A stretch of DNA of 35,560 bases from Saprospiraceae bacterium (GTDB lineage: Bacteria; Bacteroidota; Bacteroidia; Chitinophagales; Saprospiraceae). The DNA lies in assembly GCA_020631455.1 (NCBI GenBank), contig JAHDHF010000012.1:1-35560 (forward strand), read 5' to 3'. The notes beneath the pieces were generated by a model. It did not search any database. It worked only from the letters and a program-made list of their open reading frames with translations, and was not told the origin of the DNA. A program made the position numbers and the translations under genes. This document shows positions 216 through 33,512 of this stretch, one piece after another (position 1 is the first letter of the stretch; every line of letters begins with the position of its first letter).

Positions 216-3170
216 TTATTGTTTAACTACTCTAAAGACCGCGTATTCACCCTCAGCTGACGTAATTCGAATAAAGTAAACTCCTGATGGTTGCTCTATT
301 GAGTACGTCGTTGATTGAAGGTTTTGATATTTCTGTGAGTTGACTTGCTGCCCCATTACATTAAATGTCTCGATTTGGATATTTTGATATGTATCGCCTA
401 AATCAATAGTAAACACACCATCATTTGGATTTGGGTACAAACTGAAGTCATGGCTGCTTGTCGAAAAACTTTCTATGCTTGTAATGACATTGACCATATC
501 ATCTACTGTATGCATACTTGTGTTTGTGATGATCGGAGCATTAAAATCAAAATAGATAGCAGCACTGTTATTAAGCTCTGTTCCGTTAGGGAGTCCAGGA
601 ACTTGATCGACTTTAAAGACACAGAATCCATTACTTGCAGGCTCGTTGGTTGTACTATCTGGGAGCAATATGTTATTAAAGGTCCACTCTAAGACTCGCG
701 GCCCATAAATACGAAACTCGTAGTCATGGCTCGACACACCTGGCTGCACAGAAAAGATATCAAAGTCTGTCGAGAGCGTATCTCTGATCACAACTGTAAA
801 CGCAGTATCCGTACCAGTATTTTGGAATCGAATCCTGTATTCGAGCTGCTGCCCCGGAAGGATTAAATTATCATTTGAAATACCGAGTGGAAATCCAGTT
901 TTATCATTTGGATCATAACTGCCTGTGACGACATCACAATAGATATCACGAATTGGATCGGCATCATCGTGAGCAAAATTATTGATCAACGAATTGCTTG
1001 TTGCTGTACCACAATTTTCGACCGTTCCATTTGGATTTGAATTACCTGGATGATTAGGATGCTGATCGACTTGTAGATGCCAAGACTCTCCTTGACTTGG
1101 GAATGAGAAAATCACCGTTTCTTGACCAAGTAGCATCACAGAGTCAAGTAAAAAGAAATTGCCATCGACATAAACGATGACTGGACTGTAACAAGTCATA
1201 TCTCCATCACCAAGATCTCCTGTATTAGTTACTTCAAAAACTGCCGTGTCTCCTTGACAATAGCTTTTAACACTTAGGCTCGATTTATCCCATTCGCCAT
1301 CACAAGATGACATAAACGGTGGCAAAGGATTTGGGATAGAATCAAGCACACAATCAGGCACTGGATAAAGGTCAGCTTGCATACAAAGCCCTTGCCCGAG
1401 CTGAGCGTTGCAGCTCAATGTTGTACTAAATTGAAAGTTTACGCACTGTCCAGGATTAAGTGTCCCGACATCAACTTGATACATACTATTACCGATATCG
1501 ATATATGGCAGACTTGAGTTGTCGATGGAAATCATCGTGTCGAGCTCAACGATTACATACGCGCTATTCAGTGCGCCTGTACCGTTGTTTGTATTGCAGG
1601 CTTGTACATAGACTGTTTGATTACTAAAACACGGCCGCATAAACGGCATATTGATACTCACATCTGGCTCAGCACATGGATACAACGAATACAAGCCAAA
1701 TGAAGGAGCTGCAGTTAATGAGTCTGGATTAGTTACAACAAATGACTGCGTAATTGGGCAATTTGTCGTCCAAGTACCTGAAGTGTCTATAGTGATTGTG
1801 TACGTACCAGCTGCTAAAGAATCAACATACCATGAACCCGTAGATGTAGTTTCGACAATGATGTTTCCAGGCTGAATGATAGCTTTTCGATTTGAAATGC
1901 CAAATTCATTTATATCAGACGCGCAGTTTTGATTGAGATCATTATACAATACTCCGTATACACCTTTCAGTTTGAAAACTCTTACATGACCCGCGTTTAA
2001 TAAACTATTATCATTGTATACAGCACCGACAGCAACAATATCCCCATCAGCGCTTATGCTTACTGAGAAGCCACTTTGATCGCCTGCTCCTTCACCATCA
2101 ATATCTTGCCCAAGCTGAATCCAAGAGTTGCCATCCCATCTGTAGATACGAGCATGACCAGAATTAACCCCATTTCCATCGTTGTTTCGAGCACCGACAA
2201 CTAAAGTGTTTCCATCCGCACTTAAACTTATAGATTCAGCACTTTTATCCGATGTTGCTTCCCCATCGATATCTAGCCCACGTTGTGCCCAATTAACTCC
2301 GTCCCAAGCGTAGATTGCTACATAACCAAAATTTCTGGGAGCTCCAACTGCAACAGTGTTCCCGTTACCATTTAAGCTCACGGACCAGCCACTATTATCA
2401 TGTATAACATCTCCGTCGATATCTAACCCTCTCTGCATCCAACTAACTCCGTTCCAAGTATATACTCTGACGTGACCAGTTTTTAATCCGTTTCCATCGT
2501 TCCAAGCAGCACCAATAGCTACTACGTTCCCGTCGTCGCTTAAGCTTACAGATCGGCCACTTTGATCGTCTATTGCTTCCCCATCAATATCTAACCCACG
2601 CTGAATCCAATTAACTCCATCCCAAGCGTAGATTCGCACATGGCCGGAATTATTTCCATTTCCATCGTTCCAAAGAGCACCGATAGCTACGGTGTTTCCA
2701 TCAGCACTAAGACTTGCCACTCCACTCTTATCTTCTGTTGCTTCCCCATCGATATCTAGCCCACGCTGAATCCAATTAACTCCATCCCAAGAATATACTC
2801 TGACGTGACCAGCTCTATATCCATTACCTTCGTTCCAAGGAGAACCGATAGCGACTGTGTTCCCATCGGAGCTAATACTTACTGATGAACCACTTTCATC
2901 TCCTATTGCTTCACCATCAATATCTTGACCGCGTTGAATCCATGCAACTCCATCCCACTCATAAACACGAACATGACCAGAAAGAGAGCCACTTCCATCA
3001 TTTTCTGGTGCCCCAATAGCTACGACACTTCCGTCCTCATTTAAACTTACAGAAGAACCACTTAGATCCCCCGGATTCTCTCCGTCTATGTCCTGTCCGA
3101 GCTGTATTTGGGCTGAGAGTATTGAGAGAGAGAATAGAAATGATAGAGAGATGAGTAGATACTTTTTCAT
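216..3170 (-). CDS. T9SS-exported surface protein with seven propeller-like repeats
   Basis: A 984-residue secreted protein of unknown ligand. Residues 1-20 form a signal peptide ending SAQ. Residues about 22-406 hold seven tandem units of about 56 residues, each running from a (Q/R)G-DIDGE block through a VAIGA block and a GHVRVY block to WDGVxW, resembling FG-GAP-type beta-propeller blades. A SdrD/Cna-B-like domain follows (GVLYNDLNQN onward), then a long region with paired cysteines, a DUF11/DUF7619-like domain beginning GSYDPNDKTG, and from about residue 910 a type IX sorting domain (LYPNPNDGVF, then SGVYFIRI). It would cross the outer membrane by T9SS and be attached or released at the surface. 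Unit 5 lacks about six residues and unit 3 one. A TATATTTG box lies 28 bases upstream of the start. The architecture is clear; the biological role (adhesion or gliding is possible) is not. Confidence 0.9.
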   Translation of the reverse strand: MKKYLLISLSFLFSLSILSAQIQLGQDIDGENPGDLSGSSVSLNEDGSVVAIGAPENDGSGSLSGHVRVYEWDGVAWIQRGQDIDGEAIGDESGSSVSISSDGNTVAIGSPWNEGNGYRAGHVRVYSWDGVNWIQRGLDIDGEATEDKSGVASLSADGNTVAIGALWNDGNGNNSGHVRIYAWDGVNWIQRGLDIDGEAIDDQSGRSVSLSDDGNVVAIGAAWNDGNGLKTGHVRVYTWNGVSWMQRGLDIDGDVIHDNSGWSVSLNGNGNTVAVGAPRNFGYVAIYAWDGVNWAQRGLDIDGEATSDKSAESISLSADGNTLVVGARNNDGNGVNSGHARIYRWDGNSWIQLGQDIDGEGAGDQSGFSVSISADGDIVAVGAVYNDNSLLNAGHVRVFKLKGVYGVLYNDLNQNCASDINEFGISNRKAIIQPGNIIVETTSTGSWYVDSLAAGTYTITIDTSGTWTTNCPITQSFVVTNPDSLTAAPSFGLYSLYPCAEPDVSINMPFMRPCFSNQTVYVQACNTNNGTGALNSAYVIVELDTMISIDNSSLPYIDIGNSMYQVDVGTLNPGQCVNFQFSTTLSCNAQLGQGLCMQADLYPVPDCVLDSIPNPLPPFMSSCDGEWDKSSLSVKSYCQGDTAVFEVTNTGDLGDGDMTCYSPVIVYVDGNFFLLDSVMLLGQETVIFSFPSQGESWHLQVDQHPNHPGNSNPNGTVENCGTATSNSLINNFAHDDADPIRDIYCDVVTGSYDPNDKTGFPLGISNDNLILPGQQLEYRIRFQNTGTDTAFTVVIRDTLSTDFDIFSVQPGVSSHDYEFRIYGPRVLEWTFNNILLPDSTTNEPASNGFCVFKVDQVPGLPNGTELNNSAAIYFDFNAPIITNTSMHTVDDMVNVITSIESFSTSSHDFSLYPNPNDGVFTIDLGDTYQNIQIETFNVMGQQVNSQKYQNLQSTTYSIEQPSGVYFIRITSAEGEYAVFRVVKQ

Positions 3171-9044: not shown

Positions 9045-10291
9045 TGAATACTTTGCGCACTTGGCTGAGCCGCTATCACGCTACGATTGCTTTTTGGGCA
9101 TTGGTCGTGTTATTGGTCTCTTTGGTGTATAGCAAATTTTTGTTGAGCGTGTGCATGTTTGCGTTGTTGATTCCAGCCTTGCTCCGTATTGATGTGAGGG
9201 CTCGCATGAACGAATGGCTCACGCAGCGCAAATATGTGGCTCTGTTATTTCCGTTATTGGCTGTTTTGATAAGCGGCTTGTGGTCATCTGACACATCGCT
9301 CTGGCTTGAGCGAATGCGCATCATGTTGCCGCTTGCTGGACTTGGTTTTGCTTTTTCGGCGATGCCCAAACTCGCCTTTTGGCGGCTGCACATGATTTGG
9401 TTTTTCTTCCTGTTTGTGATGGCTGTTTCGATCAGTCTTGTACTTGGCAATTACGCATTCAATATGGTCGAGATACAAGATATGATGCGGCGTGGGCAGC
9501 CGATGCCTGTGCCCAAGATCAGTCATATTCGATTTAGTCTGCTTTGTGTGACTGCGGCAATCGGAGGAGTCGATTTGATTCGTCAAGGCGCATTTCCGAA
9601 GCGGCGATGGCTCAAAACACTTGTTTGGATTTGTACGATTATCCTGATCGTTGGGCTGCATATCTTGAGTGTGCGCAGTGGTTTGCTTGCCTTGTATGTG
9701 AGCCTATTTGGTTATGCTGTGATGACTGCTTGGGTCGATCGCAAATTTGTGTTGCTTGGTATCGTAGCTCTTGGTTGTACCCTTGCGCCGATGGCTGCCT
9801 ATCAGCTCCCGAGCGTTCGCCAAAAAGTTGATTATACGCTTTGGGATCTCAAAATGTATCGCGAAGGCAATATCTCAGAATACAGCGATGCTCGCCGCTG
9901 GGTAAGCCTTGGTCTCGGACTTGAGCTTGGCAAATCTTCGCCGCTACTCGGAGTAGGCGCAGGCGATGTCAAGCCCGAGCTCAAAAAGCTCTACGCGGCT
10001 CGTTATCCAGATCAGCCAGTTTTGCTGCCGCACAATCAGTATATCTACACCTTTGCGGCGATGGGTGCACTTGGCGTCGTTGCGCTACTGGCTTTGATCG
10101 TTGCACTTATCTGGACTGGCATCAGGCACAAGCATCCACTCTTGATCGCTATTACGCTGATGTTTGTGAGCTCGATGCTCGTCGAGACAACTCTAGAGAC
10201 AGCCGTCGGTATGGCGGCCTTTCTTGTACCGCTGCTTATAGCGTTTCTCTATCTTGATCGCTTCAATGCTCGACAGTCACAAGAAGAGTAA
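9044..10291 (+). CDS. O-antigen ligase-like polytopic membrane protein
   Basis: A 415-residue inner-membrane protein from the ATG at 9044, which overlaps the trmB stop; a TTG three bases earlier is also in frame but less likely. About ten or more hydrophobic segments span most of the length. A large periplasmic-loop region near residues 260-330 includes LLGVGAGD and PHNQYIYTFAAMG, the features of the Wzy_C/O-antigen ligase family, which join or polymerise lipid-linked glycans outside the inner membrane. No glycosyltransferase or other polysaccharide gene is adjacent, so it is not part of a visible O-antigen locus. Coupling to trmB seems a matter of operon arrangement, not shared function. Confidence 0.8.
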   Translation: MNTLRTWLSRYHATIAFWALVVLLVSLVYSKFLLSVCMFALLIPALLRIDVRARMNEWLTQRKYVALLFPLLAVLISGLWSSDTSLWLERMRIMLPLAGLGFAFSAMPKLAFWRLHMIWFFFLFVMAVSISLVLGNYAFNMVEIQDMMRRGQPMPVPKISHIRFSLLCVTAAIGGVDLIRQGAFPKRRWLKTLVWICTIILIVGLHILSVRSGLLALYVSLFGYAVMTAWVDRKFVLLGIVALGCTLAPMAAYQLPSVRQKVDYTLWDLKMYREGNISEYSDARRWVSLGLGLELGKSSPLLGVGAGDVKPELKKLYAARYPDQPVLLPHNQYIYTFAAMGALGVVALLALIVALIWTGIRHKHPLLIAITLMFVSSMLVETTLETAVGMAAFLVPLLIAFLYLDRFNARQSQEE

Positions 10292-10303
10292 GAATGATTT
10301 TTA

Positions 10304-10401
10304 GGGGCATCCGCTCATGTTATGAGCGGCGGGCTATCCGGCACTCTCAGCCTTCTCACGTTGTTCGCAGGCTGTTCAGACAACGCCTTCTATCCCTATG
10401 C
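10304..10401 (+). repeat. Intergenic hairpin repeat copy R5 (subfamily B2)
   Basis: Starts GGGGCATCCGC, has stem CCGCTCATGTTATGAGCGG, and ends CTATCCCTATG. From 10325 to 10400 it is identical base for base to 11117-11192 in copy R6a, and both are in the same orientation around a single gene. Confidence 0.9.
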
Positions 10402-10422
10402 CTTTGTGTATTTCCTCATTTT

Positions 10423-10998
10423 TTATGGTACATATACTTTGTTGTAGAATTTTCTTAATGAATTTTGAGTCAAAAAGAAAAGACCACTTTCGACGTCATC
10501 ATTTGCTGATGATTCCATCTCCACTTTGTAATTAAGACCTTCAGGGATGTCTTGCCAAGGATAAAGTCGCTTACATATGTAAATATTGTCACCAGATTCG
10601 AGGGACAGTAAAACCCAGACACAAAGCTTATTCGATAAGTTTTTTTTATACGCTGTACCTGTTTTGAATACTTGGGCTCCATAACTATAATTCCACCATA
10701 TACTTTTATCCACCACTTTGCTGCTTGTTTTGAGGTTGGAGTGATTAATGGTGACTTCATCTAAATCGATTCCTTCCAGCTTAATGTACCCGAAGTGCTT
10801 GATGAAATAATAAAAAACAAAAACTATGTATAGACAACAACTCGTCAATATGATCAATTGTCCAGAGAAGGATTGTAGATACTGGTGGATATTTCCTTTA
10901 AATAAAAATACAAAATAGCCGAAATAGACACAGATTAACATGAAAGCAATTTCAAGAAAAATTATTCTCGGATGATTTGTAACTCTAATTTTAGCCAT
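10423..10998 (-). CDS. A+T-rich orphan membrane protein
   Basis: A 191-residue protein of no recognised family. Two hydrophobic segments (about residues 11-33 and 45-66) make a hairpin in the membrane; residues 70-191 are soluble, with aromatic-rich stretches (KSIWWNYSYG, KRLYPWQDIPEG). The overall plan resembles small Bacteroidota proteins with two transmembrane helices followed by a PH-like domain, but no motif proves this. A sampled 120-base stretch (10561-10680) is about 37% G+C, clearly lower than the neighbouring trmB and ligase genes. The gene is transcribed alone from its own TATATTTG box and is bracketed by direct repeats R5 and R6a, which suggests acquisition or movement as a one-gene cassette. 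Confidence 0.75.
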   Translation of the reverse strand: MAKIRVTNHPRIIFLEIAFMLICVYFGYFVFLFKGNIHQYLQSFSGQLIILTSCCLYIVFVFYYFIKHFGYIKLEGIDLDEVTINHSNLKTSSKVVDKSIWWNYSYGAQVFKTGTAYKKNLSNKLCVWVLLSLESGDNIYICKRLYPWQDIPEGLNYKVEMESSANDDVESGLFFLTQNSLRKFYNKVYVP

Positions 10999-11066
10999 TG
11001 ATTTTTCTAGAATTGATTAAAGTTTTTTAATAAAAAAAAGTCGAGTTCGATCACCTTTTAGAATAG

Positions 11067-11074
11067 CAAATATA
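11067..11074 (-). promoter_or_regulatory. -7 box TATATTTG for the orphan membrane protein
   Basis: Minus-strand TATATTTG, identical to the boxes at 3198 and 17444. It lies 68 bases before the start codon. It is on the gene side of R6a, inside the bracketed segment, so the promoter would travel with the gene. Confidence 0.5.
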
Positions 11075-11089
11075 CATGTTAAAAATATA

Positions 11090-11192
11090 GGCATCTACTG
11101 CTGCATTACATTTGGCAGCGGCGGGCTATCCGGCACTCTCAGCCTTCTCACGTTGTTCGCAGGCTGTTCAGACAACGCCTTCTATCCCTATG
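11090..11192 (+). repeat. Intergenic hairpin repeat copy R6a (subfamily B2)
   Basis: Shares 76 identical bases (11117-11192) with R5. The stem at its left end differs in sequence (CTGCTGCATTACATTTGGCAGCGG versus the CCGCTC stem of R5), so the conserved arm and the variable hairpin have different histories. Confidence 0.9.
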
Positions 11193-11201
11193 ACGAGCAG
11201 C

Positions 11202-11334
11202 TTGGACAAGCGCTGCGAAGTGGTAGCCGCAGGCTAGACGCGACGTAGAGCAAAGCTCTAGGAGCGGCCGAGCAAGCAGTGAGCCACGCAGCATAGCGAC
11301 CCGTAGCGAGCGCAGCGAGCAAAGGGATGGCCCA
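11202..11334 (-). repeat. Intergenic hairpin repeat copy R6b (subfamily A)
   Basis: On the minus strand it starts GGGCCATCCC, continues GGGTCGCTATGCTGCGTGGC and ends GCGCTTGTCCAA. It lies nine bases from R6a in opposite orientation, the only back-to-back pair in the window. Confidence 0.85.
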
Positions 11335-11422
11335 TCATTTCTCAAATAATAAAAGATCACCTTCTATCAGAAATACTTGAAAAAAGGGCGCTCGGGTGCA
11401 TGACAAGTGTCGGCTTTTCGCT

Positions 11423-11430
11423 TACCTTTG
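11423..11430 (+). promoter_or_regulatory. -7 box TACCTTTG upstream of ppiD
   Basis: Exact TAnnTTTG match. The resulting leader would be about 115 nt, long for this window, and begins with a possible seven-codon peptide (ATG at 11432). A closer promoter cannot be excluded. Confidence 0.4.
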
Positions 11431-11468
11431 CATGAATTTTTCAACACCGTTTTGAGATGCGACAAAAT

Positions 11469-11492
11469 GCCTTAATTATACCTACTTAAGGC
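11469..11492. promoter_or_regulatory. Inverted repeat in the ppiD leader
   Basis: GCCTTAA and TTAAGGC are separated by 10 nt within the predicted leader. It could be an operator or a small RNA hairpin; nothing else supports either. Confidence 0.25.
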
Positions 11493-11548
11493 GTTGATAA
11501 TGAAGCACTTAAAACATTTCACGGCGTAAAAGCACAGACTCGATACAG

Positions 11549-25628: not shown

Positions 25629-26627
25629 ATGAAAATTGCAATAGTAGGTGTCACAGGACTTGTCGGTCATACGATGATTGAAGTACTTGAGAAAAGCAAC
25701 CTTCATGTATCAGAGTTGATTCCTGTTGCATCGGCGCGATCAGTAGGCAAAGAGATTCAATTTGATGGTCGTGCTTGGACAGTCGTTTCTATGCAAGATG
25801 CGATCGAGAGGCAGCCTGACATTGCATTGTTTAGTGCCGGCGGAGGCGTGAGTCGAGAGTTTGCGCCGCAATTTGCTGCTGTCGGTACGACGGTGATTGA
25901 TAATAGTTCTGCATGGCGGATGGAGGAAGATGTCAAGCTCGTCGTGCCAGAAGTCAATGGCGATATGCTTGATGGCACTGAGCGAATCATCGCCAATCCG
26001 AACTGCTCGACGATACAAATGGTCGTCGCGCTTAAGCCGCTCCATGATGCTTACAGAATAGAGCGACTCGTCATCAGCACATATCAATCGCCATCTGGTA
26101 CTGGGCAAGATGCTGTCAAACAATATGACGAAGAGCGAAACGGCGAAACAGCCAGCAGCCCTGTCTATCCGCATCCAATACACGGCAATTGCATTCCGCA
26201 TTGTGATGTCTTTGTAGAAGATGGCTACACGCGAGAAGAAATGAAGCTCGTATATGAAACGCGCAAAATCATGGGCGACGACTCGCTCAGAATTACGGCT
26301 ACTGCTGTGCGCGTGCCATCACTCGGCGGCCATAGCGAATCTGTCAATGTTCGGTTTGAGCAGCCGTATCATCTTGATGAGCTGAAGCAGCTCCTCGTAG
26401 AAGCAGATGGCGTGACGGTACTTGATAATCCTGCTCAAAATGTGTATCCGACGCCACTGGCTGCTCATCAACTCGATGATGTTTTTGTAGGAAGAATACG
26501 CCGTGATTTCAGCGAAGAGAATGCAGTCAATCTCTGGATCGTCTCTGATAATCTGCGGAAAGGAGCTGCTACAAATGCGGTGCAAATAGCTGAAATCGTA
26601 GCTGTAAAACAAGCAGCTCTGGCATAG
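25629..26627 (+). CDS. asd: Aspartate-semialdehyde dehydrogenase
   Basis: A 332-residue NADPH-dependent enzyme converting aspartyl phosphate to aspartate semialdehyde, the branch point for lysine/diaminopimelate, methionine and threonine. The nucleotide-binding motif GVTGLVG is at residues 7-13, and the catalytic Cys126 is in NPNCSTIQM. Further family motifs are QSPSGTGQDAV, IHGNCIPHCD and the late VPSLGGHSESVNVRF with the substrate-binding His. Length is typical. The stop codon TAG coincides with the first bases of repeat R12 (TAGGGATGG), but the C-terminus (TNAVQIAEIVAVKQAAL) looks family-like and complete. Monocistronic with its own promoter. Confidence 0.96.
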   Translation: MKIAIVGVTGLVGHTMIEVLEKSNLHVSELIPVASARSVGKEIQFDGRAWTVVSMQDAIERQPDIALFSAGGGVSREFAPQFAAVGTTVIDNSSAWRMEEDVKLVVPEVNGDMLDGTERIIANPNCSTIQMVVALKPLHDAYRIERLVISTYQSPSGTGQDAVKQYDEERNGETASSPVYPHPIHGNCIPHCDVFVEDGYTREEMKLVYETRKIMGDDSLRITATAVRVPSLGGHSESVNVRFEQPYHLDELKQLLVEADGVTVLDNPAQNVYPTPLAAHQLDDVFVGRIRRDFSEENAVNLWIVSDNLRKGAATNAVQIAEIVAVKQAALA

Positions 26628-26757
26628 GGATGGTAGGCAGGCCCGACTAGTCGGGAGATGCAAGGCGGAGCCGCAGCAGCCGAGCGAATAGCGAGCTGCC
26701 GCACAGCCCGCCGACTCATGAATCCTGAATTCTCAGGTGAATGAGGCGGATGCCCCT
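26626..26757 (-). repeat. Intergenic hairpin repeat copy R12 (subfamily B3)
   Basis: Minus-strand copy: starts GGGGCATCCGC, contains an imperfect CTCAT/ATGAG stem, then GCGGGCTGTGCGGCAGCTCG and ends ACCATCCCTA. It closely resembles R14 over about 85 bases, including CCCGACTAGTCGGG at 26642-26655. It supplies the asd stop codon and an in-frame ATG upstream of the next gene. Confidence 0.85.
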
Positions 26758-28594: not shown

Positions 28595-29041
28595 ATGATT
28601 CGTTTCTCAGTTCTTTTCGGTTTTCTCATGTTTGCTTCTGCTGTTTTTGCGCAGCAAGATTCACCTGTCTCATGGTCATTTGATGCCAAAGCGCAAGACG
28701 CAAATACATACATTGTGACATTTACAGCTTCTGTAAGTAAAGGTTGGGGCATCTACTCTAAAGACATGGAAGCTGGCGGCCCGATCCCAACTTCATTTAT
28801 GTTTGACGATGATTCAGCTGTTCGAGTTGATGGAGACATGATTGAAAAAGGTGATCGAAAAATCATTTTCGATGAGCTTTTTGAAATGGAAGTCAACAAG
28901 TTATTCGGTACAGTTACCTATCAGCAAACAGTAAACGCAAAACCTGGCTCTACGCTCAAAGGGTATCTCGAGTTCATGACTTGTGATGACAAGCGATGCT
29001 TGCCGCCGACGACGGTTGATTTTGCGATTGCACTCAAATAA
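28595..29041 (+). CDS. Stand-alone DsbD N-terminal-domain protein
   Basis: A 148-residue secreted protein: signal peptide MIRFSVLFGFLMFASAVFA with cleavage before QQDSP, then a single nDsbD-like immunoglobulin-fold domain. The conserved elements are KGWGIYSKDMEAGGPIPTSF and TCDDKRCLPP with Cys130 and Cys135, spaced as in the two nDsbD units of the next gene. In classical DsbD this domain passes electrons from the membrane part to periplasmic partners. As a free domain it might be a soluble electron carrier served by the DsbD encoded 38 bases downstream; that is an inference from the operon. Confidence 0.85.
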   Translation: MIRFSVLFGFLMFASAVFAQQDSPVSWSFDAKAQDANTYIVTFTASVSKGWGIYSKDMEAGGPIPTSFMFDDDSAVRVDGDMIEKGDRKIIFDELFEMEVNKLFGTVTYQQTVNAKPGSTLKGYLEFMTCDDKRCLPPTTVDFAIALK

Positions 29042-29079: not shown

Positions 29080-31815
29080 ATGCGTTACGTCTTTGGCTTT
29101 CTCGTACTGTTTAGCTTTTTACTAGCAAACCCAAATCAAATAACTGCTCAGAGCGATCCAGTCAAATGGTCGTTTTCACTGACGCATGATGGTGGCGAAG
29201 ACTTTACTCTCGAAGGCAAAGCGAACATCAAAGATGGCTGGTATACCTATTCGCAGTTTACAGAAGAAGGCGGACCTGTACCTACTAATCTTGGATTCGA
29301 AGGTGATAAAGGACATTACAAAGTCGTCGGTAAAGCAAAAGAATGCTGCAAGCCGATCGAAGGTATGTCTGACATCTTTGGTGTCAATGTGATCAAATTC
29401 AAAAAATCATTTACGCTCACGCAAAAACTCAAGATCAGCGATCCGAGTAAACCGATCGAAGGCTATATCGAAAGCATGGCATGTGATGCAAGCAGCTGCT
29501 TGCCGCCGACATTCCACGAATTTAAAATTACGCCGAGTAGCGTGATGACAGGAGGAGCAAGTGCTTCAACAGATGAACCTAAAGCCGACGAAATACCAGC
29601 TGTAGAAGAGCCTAAAAGTGAACCTGTAGAAACAACTACACAAGAAGAGGATAAAACGAAAAGCAAAGGATTGACATTTGATGTCAATCCAAGTGATACG
29701 CGCACGCAGACAGACATTAAGCCAGCTGACAAGCCTAAACAAGAAGATAAACCTATTGCTAAAGAATCTGATGATTCGGAAGAAGAAGAAATTTCTGAAA
29801 GCAACTATCCAGTCATGTGGACGGTCGAAGCCAAACAAGTCAAAGACAAAACATTTGACCTTGTCTACACAGGCAAGATCCGAAAAGGCTGGAAAACGTA
29901 TTCTGCATTTACTCCAGATGACGGAGGGCCGTTACCGACGATCTTGTTTTTTGATGGTGACGAAGATTCCTATACACTCGAAGGCAAAATCAAAGAAACT
30001 GGGAATATTACAAAAGCATATAGCAAGCTCTTTGATGCTGAAGTTGTCAAAGTAGAACCGGGTAAACCTTATACAATTACACAGCGAGTCACCTTTAAAG
30101 ACATTTCAAAACCAGTAACAGTTGGAGTCGAGTTTCAAGTATGTGACAAAGAAAAGTGCCTGCCTCCAAAGCCTGTCGATTTCAAACTTGACTTGAGTAA
30201 AGGAAATGCAAGTTCATCAGTAGCAGATGACGGTCGCGATGCTGATGGGAGCATGAATGCCAACACCAACTTAACTGGTGATGCAGCATTCGGAAAAGGA
30301 ACACCAATAGAGTATAATTTTGATCGACAATTTATCGATAATTCATGCTCAGCAGGCGGCGAACTTGCAGTCAAAGAGAAAAGCTATTGGTTGATTTTTG
30401 CCCTTGGTTTTGGAGGCGGATTATTAGCATTATTGACGCCTTGTGTCTTTCCGATGATTCCGCTTACAGTAAGCTTCTTTACCAAAGGCAGCGAAAACCG
30501 CGCAAAAGGAATACGAAACGCATTATTGTATGGTGGTAGTATCATTCTGATTTATACAATTATTGGGTCTTTAATTACAGGATTACTCGGAGCAGATGCA
30601 CTCAATGTGATGTCCACAAACATGTGGTTTAATCTGCTTTTCTTCGCTATATTTTTAATATTTGCGTTTTCATTTTTTGGGTTTTATGATATTACGCTTC
30701 CAAGTAGTTGGAGTAATAAAACTGATAGACTTTCAAATAAAGGCGGATTAATTGGTATTTTCTTTATGGCATTTACACTCAGTATTGTGTCATTCAGTTG
30801 TACAGGGCCAATTATCGGTACACTTCTCGTCGAGGCTGCTACAGGAGCAGGAGATGCGACAATTTTAGGTCGTATACCAGTCAAACCAATTGTCGGAATG
30901 CTTGGGTTTTCTATTGCACTTGCATTGCCATTTACGTTATTCGCTTTATTTCCGAGTTGGCTTAATTCACTTCCAAAATCTGGCGGCTGGCTCAATAGCG
31001 TCAAAGTTGTCCTCGGATTTTTAGAAGTTGCACTTGCATTTAAATTCTTAAGCGTAGCTGATTTAACTCAACGTTGGGGCTTCCTCAAATACGAATTATT
31101 TATCGGCATTTGGATTGCAGTATTTCTTGGATTAGCCGCTTATTTATTTGGCCTCATTAAATTCCCGCATGATTCACCACTCAAAAAATTAAGTATTCCG
31201 CGGTTTGCACTCGGATTATTTTCAGTTGGATTTGCAGGATACTTAGCGACAACATTTATGTACAACGAGAAATTAAATTCATTCTCGCCGCTTGCAGCAA
31301 TGTCTGGGCTTGCACCACCTGTTGGTTATAGTTGGACATATCCATCAAAGTGTCCTAATAATTTTAGTTGCTATAAAAACTTTTTTGAAGGAGTAGAATA
31401 TGCAAATGAAAATAAACTACCGATATTATTAGACTTTACAGGACACGGCTGCGAAAACTGTCGCCGAATGGAAGAAAACGTCTGGAGTAAAGAACCAGTC
31501 TGGAGTACAATTAATGACAACTTTGTTCTCGTCTCATTGTATGTTGATGAGCGGACAGATTTGACCGAGTTTTATACATCAGTGCGTGACCAAAAAATGC
31601 GTAACGTCGGTAATATGTGGAGTGATTTCCAAATTGTACATTTTAATAAAATATCGCAGCCATATTATGTGCTAGTCAGTTATGATGGTACTATTCTCAA
31701 TAAGCCGCGCGCGTACAAGCCAGCGAGTGTCGAGTCATTCAAAGATTTTCTTGATTGCGGTTTGACGACATTCGAAGAACTCGAAAGCAAGAAAGCAATC
31801 GGAGAAGTCCGATAA
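29080..31815 (+). CDS. dsbD: DsbD-type thiol:disulfide interchange protein with two N-domains
   Basis: A 911-residue protein that moves reducing power from cytoplasmic thioredoxin to the periplasm. After a signal peptide come two nDsbD domains (about residues 25-150 and 245-370) with cysteine pairs 135/140 and 355/360 in CDxxxCLPP motifs, joined by an acidic Glu/Lys-rich linker (155-240). The membrane domain (about 435-720) has the pair Cys455 (LTPCVFPM) and Cys574 (SFSCTGP), and the C-terminal thioredoxin-like domain holds Cys791/Cys794 in GCENCRR. All catalytic cysteines are present. Usual DsbD is about 570-700 residues with one N-domain, so the duplication makes this one large. It follows the stand-alone N-domain gene by 38 bases and ends before R13. 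Confidence 0.93.
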   Translation: MRYVFGFLVLFSFLLANPNQITAQSDPVKWSFSLTHDGGEDFTLEGKANIKDGWYTYSQFTEEGGPVPTNLGFEGDKGHYKVVGKAKECCKPIEGMSDIFGVNVIKFKKSFTLTQKLKISDPSKPIEGYIESMACDASSCLPPTFHEFKITPSSVMTGGASASTDEPKADEIPAVEEPKSEPVETTTQEEDKTKSKGLTFDVNPSDTRTQTDIKPADKPKQEDKPIAKESDDSEEEEISESNYPVMWTVEAKQVKDKTFDLVYTGKIRKGWKTYSAFTPDDGGPLPTILFFDGDEDSYTLEGKIKETGNITKAYSKLFDAEVVKVEPGKPYTITQRVTFKDISKPVTVGVEFQVCDKEKCLPPKPVDFKLDLSKGNASSSVADDGRDADGSMNANTNLTGDAAFGKGTPIEYNFDRQFIDNSCSAGGELAVKEKSYWLIFALGFGGGLLALLTPCVFPMIPLTVSFFTKGSENRAKGIRNALLYGGSIILIYTIIGSLITGLLGADALNVMSTNMWFNLLFFAIFLIFAFSFFGFYDITLPSSWSNKTDRLSNKGGLIGIFFMAFTLSIVSFSCTGPIIGTLLVEAATGAGDATILGRIPVKPIVGMLGFSIALALPFTLFALFPSWLNSLPKSGGWLNSVKVVLGFLEVALAFKFLSVADLTQRWGFLKYELFIGIWIAVFLGLAAYLFGLIKFPHDSPLKKLSIPRFALGLFSVGFAGYLATTFMYNEKLNSFSPLAAMSGLAPPVGYSWTYPSKCPNNFSCYKNFFEGVEYANENKLPILLDFTGHGCENCRRMEENVWSKEPVWSTINDNFVLVSLYVDERTDLTEFYTSVRDQKMRNVGNMWSDFQIVHFNKISQPYYVLVSYDGTILNKPRAYKPASVESFKDFLDCGLTTFEELESKKAIGEVR

Positions 31816-32663: not shown

Positions 32664-33370
32664 GATTGAAAAATCTCATACCAGCTTCACTTCGCCTGAG
32701 CTATAAAGTCTGGCAGCGAAAACGCGCCGATAAACAATCTGGACTTCTTGAGAAATTAGCTCAACAGAAAACGCAGCAAACAAGTTTTACGCATACACAT
32801 AAATTGCAGCAGCCTATCCGTAAATCATATCTCTACGAAAACAAAGTTCATAATATCAGAGTGGCAGCTGCACAAATCAATCAAGTCATCATCAAGCCAC
32901 ATGAGGTCTTTTCATTTTGGAATATTCTCGGCGCACCAACAAAAGAAAATAACTATAAAGTCGGCAGAAATATCATTAATGGTAAACTCGTCGAAGATGT
33001 CGGCGGCGGCTTATGTCAAGTATCTGGAATACTGTATTATTTGTCATTGCAATGCGGCTTGACGATCCTAGAGCGGCACAATCACTCAAAAGATATTTAC
33101 ACAGAAGAAGAACGCTTCACTCCACTTGGATCAGATGCGACAATTGTATTTGGATATAAAGACCTTCGCATTCAAAATCCATTTTCTTTTTCTATTCAAT
33201 TTCAATTTATTGTAGAAGATGATTCGGTAGAATTAATTCTCAAAAGTGAGCATCCAATTGAGCGGCATAGCATTGAATTTATTCGACACAACGAAAATGA
33301 TGTAATACAAGTAGACGGATTTATTGAAAAGGAAAAAGTAAATGAATCGATTTATTCGGCTGAGGGATAG
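32660..33370 (+). CDS. VanW-like protein with repeat-derived C-terminus
   Basis: A 236-residue protein of the VanW family, named for a glycopeptide-resistance accessory gene but widespread and of unknown biochemical function. The family core is clear: AAAQINQVIIKPHEVFSFW, the GGGLCQVSG motif near residues 115-123 and ERHNHSKD. There is no clear signal peptide; the N-terminus is basic. The last codons (Ser-Ala-Glu-Gly-stop) come from the edge of repeat R14, which has the same 14 bases as R8, so the original C-terminus has probably been lost or replaced. The protein is somewhat short for the family. It is coupled to the methyltransferase. The nearby M15 peptidase does not by itself make a resistance locus. 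Confidence 0.82.
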   Translation: MRLKNLIPASLRLSYKVWQRKRADKQSGLLEKLAQQKTQQTSFTHTHKLQQPIRKSYLYENKVHNIRVAAAQINQVIIKPHEVFSFWNILGAPTKENNYKVGRNIINGKLVEDVGGGLCQVSGILYYLSLQCGLTILERHNHSKDIYTEEERFTPLGSDATIVFGYKDLRIQNPFSFSIQFQFIVEDDSVELILKSEHPIERHSIEFIRHNENDVIQVDGFIEKEKVNESIYSAEG

Positions 33371-33512
33371 TAGGCAGTCCCGATTTATCGGGAGATGCGA
33401 GGCGCAGCCGAAGCAGCCGAGCGAATAGCGAGCTGCCGCATAGCCCGACCCAAAATAAAAAACCTCCTAGAAGTAATTTCTAGGAGGTTTTTTTAATGAA
33501 GGGGCAGCCCCA
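33357..33512 (-). repeat. Intergenic hairpin repeat copy R14 (subfamily B3)
   Basis: Minus-strand copy starting TGGGGCTGCCCC, with a bidirectional terminator at the hairpin position, then GGGTCGGGCTATGCGG, the accessory stem CCCGATAAATCGGG and the end CTATCCCTCAGCCG. Its plus-strand left edge overlaps the last codons of the VanW-like gene. It closely matches R12 over about 85 bases. Confidence 0.88.
33457..33494. terminator. Bidirectional terminator inside R14
   Basis: AAAAAACCTCCTAGAA and TTCTAGGAGGTTTTTT flank a five-base loop, with T-runs in both directions. It separates the convergent VanW-like and DUF1232 genes and occupies the variable-hairpin slot of the repeat. Confidence 0.9.

Follow-up and report, generated by a model that had tools for sequence, protein, structure and literature searches.

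Exact repeats on both sides of an orphan gene

Why do two repeats on either side of an A+T-rich orphan gene match letter for letter, and does the match mark a mobile cassette? The locus lies in a 35,560-nt stretch of a Saprospiraceae draft genome (2.9 Mb, 323 contigs, 94.3% complete), contig C186 in our numbering; this whole stretch is referred to here as the window. The two blocks found by a repeat search are in direct orientation, identical at 76 of 76 positions and 792 nt apart (Table 1). Between them is a single ORF of at least 100 aa. An earlier note on this DNA had described one unrecognised gene with its own -7 box, well below its neighbours in G+C, and each of these points was borne out. 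The predicted protein has no match in Pfam, NCBIfam, PHROGs or PADLOC up to E 1. Its gene has a G+C of 0.335, against 0.376 to 0.515 for the 24 other window ORFs measured. Upstream of it the motif TATATTTG was read by eye on the minus strand, which we take to be a Bacteroidota -7 box from the consensus TAnnTTTG; no clear -33 box was seen by eye. The repeat family was likewise said to be otherwise diverged, and this holds: 144 of the 146 copies (two short ones were left out) form 10,296 pairs, which are on average 78.5% identical.

Table 1. Features of the orphan gene locus, in window coordinates
Feature	Position	Strand	Remarks
Left identical block, core of module A	10325-10400	+	76 nt, repeat search
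Right identical block	11117-11192	+	76 nt, repeat search
Left module A copy	10304-10402	+	Intact; core to 10400
Left copy, P1	10306-10310 / 10398-10402	+	Outer stem, GGCAT / ATGCC
Left copy, P2	10311-10329	+	Hairpin
Right module A copy	11090-11194	+	Core intact
Right copy, P1			Mismatched outer stem, GGCAT / ATGAC
Right copy, P2	11098-11104 / 11115-11121		Altered, CTGCTGC / GCAGCGG
Module B, second interspersed repeat	11202-11334	+	Continues from right module A copy
Orphan gene	10423-10998	-	191 aa, ORF call
TATATTTG box	11067-11074	-	Matches -7 consensus, read by eye

The repeats belong to an interspersed family

Both blocks lie within copies of a longer element, module A. It is roughly 85-150 nt long and has several arms: an outer stem (P1), a variable hairpin (P2) and a core with a stem (P3) and a hairpin (P4). 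Most copies start with GGGGC(TG/AT)CC, followed by the variable P2, and end with (CA/AT)GCC. The conserved core reads GGGCT(A/G)T.CGGCACTCTC, then the P4 hairpin, then GTTC(A/G)(A/G)ACAA...(T/C)ATCCCT. The O-antigen ligase gene and the orphan gene converge on the left window copy, whose outer stem and P2 extend partly beyond the identical block. Upstream of ppiD, the right copy forms an A-B composite with module B. Elsewhere in the window, on the minus strand, two elements at 26621-26710 and 33358-33447 (88% alike) represent a sister form of module A with the core CGGCAGCTCGC replacing CGGCACTCTC. Inside module A the P2 arm can be a long hairpin with runs of A and T, resembling a two-way intrinsic terminator, as at loci L020, L026, L039 and L051.

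Copies across the genome were found by BLAST and then with a covariance model built from 20 copies. At least 146 were recovered at E 0.01 or better. They come from 150 candidates scored out of 1367 first-look places, and the true number may be higher. A module B start motif lies within 330 nt of 71 of the 146 A copies when one mismatch is allowed. By crude ORF calling, 7 of the 146 are inside an ORF of at least 100 aa, which describes a family of many short palindromic extragenic copies. The same crude calling gave a gene context for 124 copies (22 left out): the flanking genes converge at 37 copies, diverge at 17 and run in tandem at 70.

Arm sharing was counted in 114 parsed copies, with 32 dropped, the right window copy among them. 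P4 is identical in 91 pairs and P2 in 19, and none of the 6,441 pairs has both arms identical. About 0.3 pairs sharing both would be expected if the arms were independent, so P2 and P4 appear to be without linkage. Since none of the 91 P4-sharing pairs also shares P2, a common P4 with a different P2 is the usual pattern in this genome.

Covariation supports a fold

Covariation supports P3 and P4 strongly and P1 moderately. The fold of the left window copy was used as the structure and tested on 20 aligned copies with 500 shuffles. In P3/P4, 91.0% of cells pair (shuffled mean 81.3%), and both sides have changed in 28 cells (shuffled mean 7.5); 0 of 500 shuffles were as high in either measure. 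Seven pairs carry a change on both sides, compared with 4.4 after shuffling (10/500 as high). The number of further pair types, 10 against 8.9, is not unusual (155/500 as high). When partners are shifted by 1-3 columns, pairing drops to 38-55%. Pairing is lost at three outer P4 pairs in 6-9 of the 20 copies. Across the genome, 79 copies have A-T at the variable P3 pair and 46 have G-C; in 1 copy the two letters do not pair. In P1 two positions vary, and they complement each other in 115 of 124 copies (shuffled mean 100.6, maximum 106); six of the nine misfits are script misreadings of the core.

RNAalifold was run on the first alignment, of 15 copies with the P1 arms out of register. It returned only 8 pairs, accounting for some of P4 and for one local hairpin at GGGCT, and predicted neither P1 nor P3. 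Folding energies of single sequences give a less clear picture: of six evaluated, module B included, two score below z -2, and the window copies are unremarkable, at z -0.88 and +0.44. Module A presumably acts as folded RNA or single-stranded DNA.

The window pair is private and local, and its identity has a parallel

Chance is excluded for an exact match of 76 nt. Such identity is not unique within the module A family. Among 10,585 copy pairs 76 nt is the longest exact match, and it is reached both by the window pair and by an unlinked pair (C309/C145), whose P2 hairpins and flanks differ too, as they do in the window. Over the whole 79-nt core, another pair (C171/C106, 98.7%) is more alike than the window pair (97.5%), and several others equal it. 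A match of at least 97% somewhere was found for 11 of the 146 copies, both window copies counted, so that full identity is rarer than a common P4. The median copy has a best match elsewhere of 94.8%.

The two window copies are each other's best match, and no other copy found matches either by more than 80%. They are also the closest-spaced of 49 neighbour pairs, and their core variant is private, being absent from the other 144 copies. A private core together with the closest spacing points to local copying or gene conversion. The second-closest pair (C289:9073 and C289:10633; L045, L041) is inverted, 1,560 nt apart and 93.8% alike, and it encloses two ORFs of usual G+C. Close copies can thus be alike with no A+T-rich orphan between them. 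As a class, neighbouring copies resemble each other no more than random pairs do (mean 0.781 vs 0.785), and the case for local copying therefore comes from these two close pairs.

The orphan gene has a patchy family

A single-sequence structure model of low confidence (mean pLDDT 47.2) predicts two N-terminal hydrophobic helices followed by a beta-rich part. The best Foldseek hit of this model, at E 0.27, is meaningless, and a profile search of PDB sequences gave 0 matches up to E 1. A PH-like fold (two helices, strands and a C-terminal helix) was considered and is not claimed. A Pfam scan of 15 family members gave only single-member matches at E 0.047 or worse. Members have hydrophobic N-terminal stretches, judged by eye, and a W...N...L.PWQ..P..W.Y signature; they are probably small membrane proteins.

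Profile searches place the gene family in 14 of 398 genomes of the taxonomic family, our own included, a patchy distribution. With the single sequence, the orphan was found in 1 of 60 relatives (its own genome) and in 3 of 396 genomes of the order, of which one belongs to a different family. Among 395 genomes sampled from the phylum, it was found at E 0.0001 in its own genome only. The relatives (L221-L233, L083) appear as lone family members among unlike neighbours in different genera. Three of the four genomes of one genus (g34) have what seems to be the same neighbour gene (L229, L230 and L232, not L223), which suggests vertical descent there. In all four genomes where both could be located (G077, G094, G155, G213), the orphan relative and ppiD are on different contigs. 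Together with the patchy family, this indicates that the orphan was probably not always here, although with draft contigs it is suggestive only.

Searches for the arrangement around the gene, or for the gene in mobile DNA, were negative. After its own, the closest PpiD among 199 family genomes is 44% identical, and neither the ligase gene nor trmB was seen beside ppiD at 32 relative loci with flanks of up to 1.5 kb. A tblastn search of the orphan against plasmids gave no match. A pattern made from it returned one stretch in viral contigs, not a relative, and 19 stretches in a genome contig collection, where close relatives only are detectable and none was a relative.

Composition and flanking repeats do not mark a cassette

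Low G+C could be read as a sign of foreign origin. The GC3 of the orphan is 0.35, a value that 34% of 433 sampled ORFs do not exceed; these ORFs, of at least 120 aa, were crudely called on sampled loci, and the orphan itself is counted. In overall G+C, 27 of the 433 are at or below the orphan. As GC3 is ordinary, codon positions one and two account for most of the low G+C, which therefore reflects amino-acid composition. The relatives behave similarly: at 10 of 14 loci the gene is about three points or more below its flanks, and at 4 it is not lower. The window gene has a gap of 13 points, exceeded by only one of the 14 relatives. Ordinary GC3 and A+T-rich relatives therefore rule out low G+C as evidence of transfer.

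The bracketing repeats do not follow the gene either. Around the genes of all 14 relatives the longest exact direct repeat is 0-12 nt, two of these loci having less than 70 nt on one side. Brackets of this kind are thus not a property of the orphan gene.

Origin of the identical cores

We give a slightly better than even chance to a REP-like element having been copied or converted locally around an accessory gene already in place. The brackets are two copies of a REP-like structured interspersed element with a replaceable P2 and a conserved core containing P4. Their cores would have been made identical by gene conversion between the two neighbours or by the element hopping over a short range, and the P2 hairpins and outer stems would have stayed or become different, as in other P4-sharing pairs. 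The orphan would be an accessory gene, probably for a membrane-bound protein, that happens to lie between the copies. The exact match, the family, its covariation, the private core and the close spacing are observed; the direction of copying and its mechanism we infer. That local copying or conversion explains the data in the fewest steps, with a cassette possible and not needed, we consider marginally the more probable view. Against local copying, the one Y1 transposase-like gene found has no module A signature in its locus, and full identity is rarer than a common P4. A conversion tract of just the 76-nt core between diverged copies would be short for homologous recombination, and this counts against conversion. 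Of the recent event proposed in the earlier note, the part that stands is the one linking the two copies, as mutual best matches and the closest pair; the cassette signs, composition and the repeats as judged around relatives, do not.

A broader reading falls somewhat short of an even chance. Module A may be an uncatalogued structured element with a multi-arm fold, found throughout the class Bacteroidia, with a fixed core and freely exchangeable P2 and P4. Copying by whatever route would renew P2, and the window pair would be a fresh copying event that could carry or bracket a gene.

Entry of the gene, its promoter and one A module as a unit, on a circle or a fragment, is unlikely, if far from negligible. 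Homologous recombination into a resident A-B element would then leave two hybrid copies with the same core, between which the segment could loop out. With its single ORF and -7 box, the bracketed segment does resemble a complete transcription unit, and the closest A pair is the very one enclosing the orphan. The patchy gene family (14 of 398, own genome included), the separation of relative and ppiD in four of four genomes and a G+C gap larger than in 13 of the 14 relatives all fit such an arrival. However, the ordinary GC3 and the lack of exact direct repeats longer than 12 nt around any of the 14 relatives' genes weigh against it, and an incoming copy would need to carry the same private core variant, which was not found among the 144 other copies.

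Two independent insertions from one source copy that the assembly or the scored list lacks are improbable. Near-identical cores do occur at unlinked places elsewhere, and a source could have been missed in a genome that is 94.3% complete in 323 contigs, with 150 candidates scored against 1367 in the first look, but two hits 792 nt apart would be needed, of a type unseen among the other 144 copies. An assembly artefact, in which a short-read assembler joined or looped contigs through the 76-nt repeat, is very improbable: the genome is a draft of 323 contigs and six module A hits begin within 60 nt of a contig start, but a single contig resolves both copies, all four flanking sequences differ, and no other copy with the same core was found.

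Module A in other genomes and in databases

Module A hits were found in 19 of 150 genomes of the family, our own included, at E 0.01 or better. In the class, 16 of 385 genomes have hits at E 0.001 or better; 13 of these are outside the family, at 28-36 bits, and the weakest could be chance. Sixteen hits inspected by eye mostly keep the order of outer stem, hairpin, GGGCT core and ATCC(C/T)T, and their outer-stem letters differ. A search of named genomes for an exact 18-nt core motif gave 18 stretches. Fourteen carry the label Saprospiraceae; the remaining four records have single exact matches, in Saccharospirillum, Methylobacter, Acidobacteria and Solibacteraceae (L129, L131, L137, L140). Outside Bacteroidota-labelled records the motif may reflect chance, contamination or transfer. 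Viral contigs gave 0 exact matches to the core motif.

Rfam 15 gave 0 matches at the gathering score for the window and 12 loci, and nothing relevant for positions 10200-11500 at E up to 10. Flavo-1 RNA (RF01705), a candidate structured RNA of Bacteroidetes (PMC2864571), was considered as an identity for module A and dropped for want of a match in Rfam 15. Literature searches by sequence string returned only unrelated papers among the matches listed, and searches by topic turned up papers on RAYTs. Judged by these literature searches and Rfam, module A appears to be unreported.

Relation to known systems

REP elements and their composites (BIMEs) are short and palindromic, present in more than 100 mostly intergenic copies per genome and often arranged as two-module composites; they are commoner at converging than at diverging gene ends. 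Module A shares the high number of mostly intergenic copies, the two-module composites and the excess of converging over diverging ends. It differs in size, since a REP is a single palindrome of 20-40 bp and module A spans roughly 85-150 nt with several arms. REPs also go with a TnpA_REP transposase (RAYT), whereas no RAYT is tied to module A here. REP/RAYT systems are reportedly associated with a GTAG or CGTC tag, named in the title of one paper.

Integron cassettes with attC sites likewise hold one gene between similar, imperfectly palindromic repeats, and the window resembles them in this respect. Unlike integron cassettes, module A is dispersed genome-wide rather than arrayed, and the identity extends over the entire core, not up to a single crossover site.

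Only one Y1_Tnp transposase-like gene was found in this genome of 94.3% completeness (L052, contig C126). A cognate TnpA_REP flanked by module A was not found; the 3.3-kb locus of the Y1 gene has no module A signature. A B-start motif lies at the edge of that locus, and an A copy is about 4 kb away on the same contig. The motifs of the Y1 gene, DHIH, WQ and YIQNQ, are like those given for subclass 1.2 in one study, and not NHxH and YIHxNP (PMC6006769). According to the same study, TnpA_REP genes of subclass 2.6 (RAYT group 5), mostly from Bacteroidetes, are flanked by atypical structures with copies elsewhere in the genome (PMC6006769). Compared by description only, module A may be of the same kind as these structures.

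Long identity between such repeats is by itself not evidence of a mobile cassette, and the gene inside the bracket probably belongs to the ordinary accessory DNA. Module A is the finding of greater interest: it is present at more than 100 places in one genome, and other families of the class have hits as well. Should its copies truly exchange arms, they would form a natural series for following how bacterial non-coding elements spread and keep their folding.

Two other sets of repeats occur in the window. Four copies of a unit of about 300 nt, 60-75% alike to the reference, lie at 1903-3021 in a 984-aa ORF (216-3170). A 58-nt direct repeat, 74% alike, is found at 28953-29010 and 29453-29510, in two neighbouring ORFs.
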